This document shows positions 34,435 to 35,657 of a stretch of DNA of 64,000 nucleotides, in pieces; positions within the stretch are counted from its first letter, which is position 1; each line of letters starts with the position of its first letter. The notes under the pieces are model-generated. The model was not told the origin of the DNA, did no database searches, and saw nothing but the letters and a program-made list of their open reading frames with translations. A program made the translations under genes and the position numbers. This stretch comes from Hymenobacter sp. PAMC 26628 (GTDB lineage Bacteria; Bacteroidota; Bacteroidia; Cytophagales; Hymenobacteraceae): contig NZ_CP014304.1 of NCBI RefSeq assembly GCF_001562275.1, positions 3,658,001-3,722,000 of the forward strand, written 5' to 3'.

Positions 34435-34680
34435 CTAGTGGCTGCCAGCCGAATCGCCTTTGGTAACGTCGTCGTTTTCACCGCGGCGCTGGCCCTGGCT
34501 GTCGCGGGGGCCCTCGGCGTCGGAGATTTCGTCGTCTTCGTCAGTGCTCACGTATTCGTTGGTGGTGGGGCCGAGGCCGTTTTTAGCTTCCAAGTCGGCT
34601 TCGGCCTGGGCGTGCTTCAGGGTAAAAAGCGGGTCGGACGGGTCGGGGGCGGCGGCTTTATTGGGCGGGGTTTGGGCCAT
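34435..34680 (-). CDS. Small acidic hydrophilic protein, unknown function
   Basis: 81 residues with no hydrophobic segment. The first half is Pro/Ala/Gln-rich with a short helical part (LFTLKHAQAEADLEAKNG); the second half is disordered and acidic (STDEDDEISDAEG, GENDDVTKGDSAGS). No domain is recognised. Support for a real gene is its position: it ends 20 bases from a shared terminator that would otherwise have no minus-strand user, and it starts about 93 bases downstream of the candidate structured RNA and its terminator, which could be its attenuating leader. Confidence 0.55.
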   Translation of the reverse strand: MAQTPPNKAAAPDPSDPLFTLKHAQAEADLEAKNGLGPTTNEYVSTDEDDEISDAEGPRDSQGQRRGENDDVTKGDSAGSH

Positions 34681-34772
34681 GGGCAGGGCCCCGGGGCCGG
34701 GAAGTGGGCGGCGCGGGGCTGTCCGGTTTTACGCAGGCGGCCCGAACGGGTTCGGGGCCCCAAAATCCTAAG

Positions 34773-34806
34773 ACAAAAAAGGCCGTTGCCCGGGGGCAAC
34801 GGCCTT
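34773..34806 (-). terminator. Terminator ending the candidate RNA
   Basis: On the minus strand AAGGCCGTTGCC, loop CCCG, GGCAACGGCCTT, then TTTTGT. The plus strand lacks a T-run, so it works only for minus-strand transcripts, although no minus-strand gene lies directly upstream. Confidence 0.8.
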
Positions 34807-34919
34807 AATAAGCAGCAGGGCCGGCCGGAAGCTGTCTACCCCAGCTTTTTGGCCAACCCCGCCAGCGCACGAGAGGTCCTTCCTTTCCACATTTCCAGCC
34901 CGTGCGGGGCACTTATGGC
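34773..34919 (-). ncRNA. Candidate structured RNA (small RNA or attenuating leader), family not recognised
   Basis: Minus-strand unit of about 145 bases with a promoter box (34929-34922), no open reading frame, and an intrinsic terminator at its end. The predicted transcript folds as a closed three-way junction: closing stem ATAAG (near 34916-34912) with CTTAT (near 34812-34808); hairpin 1 closed by CCCCGC/GCGGGG with an inner CGCACG/CGTGCG pairing and a purine-rich loop (GGAAAGGAAGGACC); hairpin 2 TGGCC-AA-AAGCTG with CAGCTT-CC-GGCCG. Then comes a 12-base terminator stem and TTTTTT. It does not match the SRP RNA, tmRNA, RNase P or common riboswitch signatures that I know. It could be a 6S-like or other small RNA, or the leader of the gene at 34680. 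Confidence 0.55.
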
Positions 34920-34921
34920 AA

Positions 34922-34929
34922 CAAACTTA
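34922..34929 (-). promoter_or_regulatory. -7 box of the candidate RNA
   Basis: TAAGTTTG on the minus strand fits TANNTTTG exactly; no clear TTTG is found 19-21 bases further upstream. Confidence 0.5.
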
Positions 34930-35034
34930 CAGCGGGCTTCGGATGGTTGTTTATTTATTTAGACTAGTTCAGTACTATCCTCTGCGAAATGGCGATATTC
35001 CTCTCCGAACGGCGCCGTAGCGGCGGGCACCGCG

Positions 35035-35042
35035 TAGTTTTG
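35035..35042 (+). promoter_or_regulatory. -7 box of the NUDIX gene
   Basis: Perfect TAGTTTTG, 36 bases before the chosen ATG at 35079. No clear -33 box. Confidence 0.5.
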
Positions 35043-35078
35043 CCGTGCGCGCGGCCCTTGCCCGCGCCGCCCGTGCCC

Positions 35079-35657
35079 ATGCTTTCTGACGCCGAACTCG
35101 ACGAAACCCACAACCCCTGGCGCGTGCTCGCCAGCGCCGTGAAATACCAAAACCCTTGGATTTCAGTACGTGAAGACCAAGTGTTGAACCCCGCCGGGGG
35201 GCCCGGCATCTACGGCGTGGTGAGCATGAAGAACAAGGCCATCGGCATCATTCCCGTCGATGCCGAGGGCAATACCTGGCTCGTGGGCCAGTACCGCTAC
35301 CCGCTCAACGAGTACAGCTGGGAGATTCCGATGGGCGGGGGCCCCGTAGAGCTCGACGTGCTGGAATCGGCCCAGCGCGAGCTGCGCGAGGAAACGGGCC
35401 TGCTGGCCGCCCGCTGGACGCGCATCGCCCGCTTGCACACCTCCAACTCCGTCACCGACGAAGAGGGCTTCGTGTACCTGGCCGAAGATCTGACGCTGGG
35501 CGAAACCGAGCCCGAAGAAACCGAGGACCTGCGCCTCTGGAAGCTGCCCCTGGCCGAGGCCGTGCGCATGGCCATGGACGACCGCATCACCGACGGCATC
35601 AGCGTGGCGGGCTTGCTGAAGGCTGAGCGCATTTTGGCGGCGCGCGCCAAGGGCTAA
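35079..35657 (+). CDS. NUDIX hydrolase, ADP-ribose pyrophosphatase-like
   Basis: 192 residues from ATG 35079 (MLSDAELDETHNPW); an ATG at 34989 is in frame but lies before the -7 box. The Nudix box GGGPVELDVLESAQRELREETGL is complete (shown: G-x5-E-x7-REL-x-EE-x-G). The fold before it (VVSMKNKAIGIIPVDAEGNTW then LVGQYRYPLNEYSWEIP) matches ADP-ribose/NDP-sugar pyrophosphatases. The family hydrolyses nucleotide diphosphates linked to sugars; ADP-ribose is the likeliest substrate. The plsC promoter is embedded in its 3' end. Confidence 0.9.
   Translation: MLSDAELDETHNPWRVLASAVKYQNPWISVREDQVLNPAGGPGIYGVVSMKNKAIGIIPVDAEGNTWLVGQYRYPLNEYSWEIPMGGGPVELDVLESAQRELREETGLLAARWTRIARLHTSNSVTDEEGFVYLAEDLTLGETEPEETEDLRLWKLPLAEAVRMAMDDRITDGISVAGLLKAERILAARAKG

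Follow-up and report, generated by a model that had tools for sequence, protein, structure and literature searches.

A two-hairpin small RNA gene widespread in the genus Hymenobacter and its possible action as a trans-encoded antisense RNA

RNAs of the CsrB/RsmY type act by sequestering protein: they have a stand-alone gene and capture CsrA by means of repeated GGA motifs in exposed loops. The other close system is GibS of Bacteroides thetaiotaomicron; its paper of 2020 puts it forward as the first such RNA whose targets came out of a genome-wide screen (PMC7366714). As described in passages of that paper (PMC7366714), GibS is an intergenic, stand-alone sRNA with a conserved seed, and it pairs with the translation initiation regions of its targets through an extended seed. 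The part that pairs is its long, unstructured 5' portion, the RNA is largely unstructured, and it is conserved within Bacteroides; the same passages state that Bacteroides has no obvious Hfq or ProQ homologue (PMC7366714).

The RNA gene described here is located on the minus strand of a 64,000-nt stretch of DNA of Hymenobacter sp. PAMC 26628 (“the window”), and the coordinates of its features are listed in Table 1. Like GibS, insofar as the latter is portrayed in those passages, it is intergenic and stand-alone and contains a conserved, proposed seed for start regions; this likeness is one of kind, drawn from the description of GibS, and it leaves sequence relation aside. The proposed seed, however, is the apical loop of a hairpin, and the Hymenobacter RNA is GC-rich, strongly folded and found only in Hymenobacter. 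With CsrB/RsmY-type RNAs it has in common the stand-alone gene and the repeated GGA in exposed loops. However, a search of the genome containing the window for the CsrA family (PF02599) gave 0 matches at E ≤ 1, so that the CsrA/RsmA partner of such a sponge RNA was not found, and this identity is not supported.

Table 1. Positions of the RNA gene, its elements and the neighbouring gene in the window
Feature	Position	Strand	Basis or remark
Small RNA gene (predicted), about 143 nt	34775..34917	minus	predicted +1 = 34917; covariance model R1 and covariation in 34 homologs
-7 promoter element of Bacteroidota type (TANNTTTG), TAAGTTTG	34922..34929	minus	read directly
Closing stem, 5' strand, ATAAG (shared core AAGU)	34912..34916	minus	fold and alignment
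Hairpin 1	34866..34906	minus	fold and alignment; stem variable, covarying in distant homologs
Apical loop 1, AAAUGUGGAAAGGAAGGA (candidate seed for antisense pairing)	34877..34894	minus	alignments
Hairpin 2	34814..34863	minus	changes on both sides in 7/11 pairs of helix 3 and 2/5 pairs of helix 4
Apical loop 2, GGGUAGA, within the conserved motif [GU]RGGGURGAY	34835..34841	minus	alignments
Intrinsic terminator (12-bp stem followed by a T run)	34775..34806	minus	changes on both sides in 7/12 pairs
Small acidic protein gene, 81 aa	34435..34680	minus	context gene; orthologs adjoin the RNA in 35/40 distant loci
AACC-N15-CGTA, probably an ECF-sigma-like promoter belonging to the small acidic gene (outside the RNA)	34730..34752	minus	

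According to passages of PMC6847099, the -7 consensus of Bacteroidota is TANNTTTG, and the G of the box is placed at -5 in Flavobacterium johnsoniae. When the G of TAAGTTTG is likewise placed at -5, transcription is predicted to start at position 34917. The box is present in 69 of the 70 homologs that were scored, the exception being L033 (TACTTTG). This count omits L042, which has too little upstream sequence, the false match L119, and L102, L104, L108 and L121, in which loop 2 was missed by the pattern of our script; TACTTTTG is visible by eye in these four. Within the 60 nt upstream of 547 putative Hymenobacter starts (from 400 kb each of genomes G000 and G123, plus the window), TANNTTTG is enriched 14.5-fold. 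Single octamers of the box type are enriched 23- to 54-fold in a set of 517 stretches that is partly redundant, because it contains many copies of the RNA locus.

The predicted fold consists of two hairpins within the stem ATAAG/CTTAT, followed by a terminator hairpin (34806-34779) and a T run, which are present on the minus strand only. A previous sequence-only reading had noted the minus-strand box, a non-coding region with two hairpins and a one-directional terminator, all of which we recovered in the sequence. The closing stem ATAAG/CTTAT, also proposed there, does pair in the clade of the window, but the stem common to the close set of homologs is AAGU/ACUU, and the latter is not recognisable in the more distant homologs. 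The folding energy is modest (z = -2.32; 6 of 200 shuffles are equally good), and one terminator-like site was counted in the GC-rich stretch, against a mean of 1.0 in its shuffles. Taken alone, the fold is unremarkable, and so is the terminator.

Unlike folding energy or the terminator, conservation and covariation settle that the structured RNA is real. The close alignment (A4) contains 34 of 36 copies; L024, at a contig end, and L023, a duplicate of L013, were dropped. In these 34 homologs, 98.3% of the cells are paired, compared to 93.1% in column shuffles, and changes on both sides affect 17 of the 42 pairs and 70 cells, compared to 8.6 and 16.8 in the shuffles; the covariation score is 0.232 versus 0.132. 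None of 500 shuffles attained any of the five measures, a result to be read with the caveat that kinship alone can lift sequences above shuffles, which rarely affects the two counting measures, and the pairing signal was lost when partners were slid. An alignment of relatives, which the earlier reading had named among its checks, yielded both compensatory changes and conservation in the genus; the lack of the two, which that reading had set as part of its refutation, was thus not seen. In the close set, the covariation is located in helices 3, 4 and 5. Helix 1, the closing stem, is paired in 99.2% of the cells and shows almost no variation, and hairpin 1 is near-constant; in the distant set, hairpin 1 varies and covaries. 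The distant alignment (A6) contains 34 of 40 loci, L101, L115, L129, L131 and L139 having been dropped as close relatives of rows retained, and L119 as a false match without the core. The presence of the box in nearly all homologs, together with a terminator stem that is kept and covaries, is what is expected of an independent transcription unit, and 34917-34775 is predicted to be a free-standing small-RNA gene. The genome containing the window scores 137.5 bits with R1, the window copy being among the model's own training sequences.

Two loops are nearly frozen, UGGAAAGGA in hairpin 1 and [GU]RGGGURGAY in hairpin 2. The loop-1 sequence UGGAAAGGA is unchanged in all 34 rows of A6. We claim this invariance from A6 only, because the 23-mer search behind the close set selects for an unchanged loop 1; the A6 loci derive from covariance-model matches instead. 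Loop 1 is predicted to be exposed (mean P(unpaired) 0.85), and on this modelling it would constitute a conserved and accessible pairing region. A small ORF starting at an ATG within loop 1 was considered and rejected, since the frame past the core shifts between clades through 1-nt indels. As we read it (this was not calculated), shifts of the frame while the loop nucleotides stay fixed mean that the constraint acts on the RNA.

A first DNA search detected the RNA in 8 of 59 genomes, one of them the genome containing the window. In a collection of genomes at species level, 34 stretches, each titled Hymenobacter, contain the exact hairpin-1 23-mer, which was present in 0 viral contigs. At E ≤ 0.01, R1 matched 82 of the 120 Hymenobacter genomes, with some short, spurious matches among the weakest, and the pattern TGGAAAGGA-N26..46-KRGGGTRGAY was found in 87 of the 120, against a single, chance-like occurrence among 84 other members of the family. 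Syntenic matches in seven genomes with variant loops (G010, G066, G072, G102, G103, G119 and G133) were added to the 87, and homologs are present in at least 94 of the 120 Hymenobacter genomes. Among 291 genomes drawn from the order, R1 gave just two matches outside the genus, of 43 and 55 nt (filters lose weak ones), and no full-length homolog was found beyond Hymenobacter among the sampled genomes. For 40 weaker loci, the R1 matches are full-length in every case (28-59 bits), and 35 of them show the gene order NUDIX / RNA / small acidic gene / rnhB. This synteny is independent of R1, as the model had no knowledge of neighbouring genes. The remaining five are the false match L119 and four paralogs.

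According to our own count from the pattern search, 18 genomes carry two to four copies; G098 and G131, whose apparent extra copies look like chance, were left out. Twenty extra copies were inspected, and NUDIX, the small acidic gene and rnhB are nearby in none of them. In eight genomes (L197-L204), a paralog is located 140-175 nt downstream of a lysC-lysA pair (measured from the gene end to the loop-1 core), and other paralogs are near an XRE-like regulator or elsewhere, the identities of all these neighbours having been read from translations of single representatives. The TANNTTTG box is present in the three lysC-lysA paralogs with the upstream region read (L110, L114 and L126). The paralogs have retained the loops and altered the stems, and because they do so beside other genes, action in trans is indicated.

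Screening of the whole window with Rfam did not result in any family at its gathering score, and the region itself gave sub-threshold matches alone. The best of these, ar35 (RF02346), covers the full length at 35.2 bits (gathering score 45); BcKCsr2 reached 24.9 bits (cut-off 40), and ncS011 reached 24.5 bits on the opposite strand. ar35 is an alphaproteobacterial sRNA, and the Hymenobacter RNA is alike in its hairpin-hairpin-terminator shape, but it stays below the gathering score and has non-standard pairs in its hairpin 1. Twelve distant homolog loci also gave sub-threshold matches only, the best being one to Thr_leader, which covers a terminator and reaches 36.7 bits (cut-off 55); ar35 appeared in one of them at 22.3 bits (E = 4.2) and in no other up to E = 5. 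Identity with ar35 was rejected, the match being probably a chance fit of shape. SRP RNA was rejected as well, since the single RF00169 match of the genome is located elsewhere (C2:2481724-2481821, 50.3 bits, cut-off 40). No description of a Hymenobacter sRNA of this kind was present among the matches listed from the open-licence PMC literature; one entry, a genome paper, concerns imidacloprid degradation. The RNA is undescribed in the RNA library and the literature searched, and the suggestion of a new small RNA agrees with the Rfam result, the genus-wide conservation and the covariation.

The gene on the 3' side of the RNA encodes a small acidic protein with the core GPRDSQG.RRGE, which is conserved in the genus Hymenobacter; the 81-aa protein of the window has no Pfam or NCBIfam family match. 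It was found in four of four genomes searched of g26, another genus of the same family, but in none of the 16 genomes searched from four further genera. The leader of the gene (34680-34780, minus strand) contains a second conserved element after its ECF-like promoter element, a GC-rich hairpin with the approximate loop sequence YYCACAUUC, which by eye is present in the homologous leaders L013-L139 and L172-L175, including g26 loci without the small RNA. This loop is nearly complementary to the clade-A loop, and it was considered as a target of the RNA. We rejected it because, in our reading, the hairpin is present in the RNA-less g26 loci and does not track the loop in other clades.

Two of the four g26 genomes have, at the place of the RNA, a gene encoding a protein of 1975 or 2035 aa (a gene for a protein of roughly 2000 aa occupies this place in loci L172, L174, L185 and L186). 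As read from its C-terminus, this protein is probably secreted via the type IX system. The motif UAGGGUGGAUG, which most distant homologs have at loop 2, starts at the stop codon of the large gene and is followed by a terminator; G358 has a single occurrence of it and G345 has two, of which the second is in another setting. A second model, R2, which has a poor automatic structure and was used for a single search, scored 31.9 and 25.9 bits at the g26 locus. These scores are weak evidence, because the opposite strand scores too (25.4 and 23.1 bits), as palindromic terminators do. A shared origin of the 3' half of the RNA and the 3' end of the large g26 gene is possible from the sequences.

We then turn to possible targets. 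In 16 genomes, 80 sites carry the complement of the 11-nt core of loop 1, CTTCCTTTCCA, of which 18 are within RNA genes and 62 elsewhere; with 55 sites for the reversed control, there is scarcely any excess. All but one (in G138) of the 62 sites were inspected. Seven of the genomes share the exact loop of the window, the identity of which was checked, and nine have other loop variants. The seven exact-loop genomes contain 28 sites, all within five of the genomes, and in four of them the perfect complementarity extends to 21 nt (L269), 20 nt (L267) and 18 nt (L252 and L232), compared to none of the 33 sites in the other nine genomes extending past 14 nt with the genome's own loop. The Markov background of the seven genomes predicts at most 0.010 sites of at least 18 nt and 0.0006 of at least 20 nt. 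Three of the four long matches sit 30-32 nt upstream of an ATG, with predicted duplexes of -33.0 to -37.7 kcal/mol. L252 and L232 are orthologs whose site precedes the ATG of a DUF2382 protein by 30-32 nt; that of L252, the one scanned, has a weak match to YflT (heat-induced stress protein) just below the cut-off. The L269 site precedes a small secreted Ser/Thr/Gly-rich protein (by reading; no Pfam match), and L267 is located between convergent genes with no ORF behind the site.

An ORF start lies within 75 nt of 22 of the 28 sites in exact-loop genomes, against 0.41 (22/54) for matched pyrimidine 11-mers (p = 5e-5), and near 15 of the 33 sites in the other-loop clades, which equals this baseline. 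As a side result, and one of several comparisons, an ECF-like element was found in 3 of 23 such candidate leaders versus 7 of the 547 background starts (p = 0.006), a suggestive excess. In the own genome, the longest loop-1 match among the sites found is 15 nt; four of the six sites begin 10-24 nt upstream of an ATG, with duplexes of -22.8 to -24.8 kcal/mol, and one of the sites is ahead of ruvA (identified by reading), with an orthologous site in G012. Pyrimidine k-mers are in general enriched ahead of starts, pyrimidine-only 6- and 7-mers about 2- to 5-fold in the 40 nt before putative Hymenobacter start codons, and the loop-1 complement is not special among its permutations in this respect. 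When duplex energies were scanned over 300 and 248 start regions, there was no excess over 13 control loops; in G123, the best single duplex (-27.2) is slightly lower in energy than that of any control (-26.7). The few long sites, set beside the lack of a general excess, suggest pairing with a few mRNAs and leave a broad regulon unsupported.

As further options, the sequence-only reading had offered attenuation, with the RNA as a leader of the small acidic gene, and a divergent 6S-like RNA. Adjacency on the same strand in 35 of the 40 distant loci is what attenuation of the small acidic gene would predict. Yet the gene appears to have a promoter of its own: AACC-N15/16-CGTA, which we take to be an ECF-sigma-type promoter, precedes it in 60 of 63 loci (N16 in 57, N15 in three, window included), always 126-373 nt past the loop-1 core and thus also past the RNA terminator. 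Moreover, the 20 additional RNA copies have no such gene nearby, and in two of the four g26 loci the small gene lies beside NUDIX with no RNA detected. As judged from these sequences, the small acidic gene does not appear to depend on the RNA promoter, which contradicts attenuation as the main role, and we consider it very unlikely. An RNA that binds RNA polymerase in the manner of 6S would fit the length, the stand-alone gene and the occurrence across the genus, as well as a genome without a match over the cut-off to 6S-Flavo, the one 6S family searched genome-wide. This idea found no support in the structure, which has two separate hairpins with conserved apical loops rather than a rod with a large central bubble, nor in the 10 Rfam matches up to E = 10 in 34600-35100, which include no 6S family. 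With several copies in 18 genomes in addition, the 6S-like reading is given little credence.

What the sequence does establish points to a stand-alone gene with a housekeeping-type promoter and a terminator, whose apical loops are nearly invariant on covarying stems. In our view, the best explanation, with a probability of roughly 60%, is a trans-encoded antisense RNA that would act by pairing of its loop 1 with the start regions of mRNAs. The RNA would be transcribed from 34917 to about 34775, and its 18-nt purine-rich loop 1 would pair with pyrimidine-rich 5' untranslated regions just before start codons and keep a limited set of mRNAs from being translated, the foremost candidates being those of the DUF2382 protein and the small secreted protein; loop 2 may be a second contact, to RNA or protein. 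Conservation and covariation, paralogs that keep loops on changed stems, long complements confined to exact-loop genomes and the proximity of the sites there to ORF starts argue for this explanation. Against it stand the near-equal count of the reversed control and the energy scan, the orthology of two of the four long matches, the lack of an ORF at L267, the short matches of the own genome and the other-loop clades, which do not favour start regions. Alternatively, the purine loops might capture an RNA-binding protein in the way of CsrB/RsmY, mRNA complementarity being incidental. Two almost frozen loops with repeated GGA, retained in paralogs, would suit such a role, but CsrA, the one protein searched, is missing from the own genome at the threshold given above, and long complements restricted to genomes with the matching loop would be left unexplained; we regard protein capture as unlikely. 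A ribosome decoy, in which GAAAGGA of loop 1 pairs with UCCUUUC in the 16S 3' tail, is scarcely credible. The expected tail GGATCACCTCCTTTC, complementary to GAAAGGA, is present in all four genomes searched (found as a sequence, not via rRNA annotation), but its duplexes are ordinary: 67, 82 and 159 of 500 loop shuffles are equally good for three loop-1 variants, and pairing with the 16S tail, not going beyond shuffled loops, was rejected.

Extending the antisense explanation, one may picture a family of hairpin-loop antisense RNAs, present in several copies and throughout the genus, which would act as a general brake on pyrimidine-rich starts lacking Shine-Dalgarno sequences, chiefly those of stress and envelope genes with an extracytoplasmic-sigma-like promoter, and whose 3' half would share ancestry with the 3' end of the g26 secreted-protein gene; taken as a whole, this picture is speculative and rather doubtful. 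To our knowledge, targets are known for only a few of the trans-acting small RNAs in Bacteroidota. The Hymenobacter RNA offers a series of at least 94 species, together with paralogs, naturally occurring loop variants and specific candidate targets, which makes co-variation between loop and target directly testable, and it lends itself to studying how antisense RNAs function in bacteria with mRNAs that lack Shine-Dalgarno sequences.
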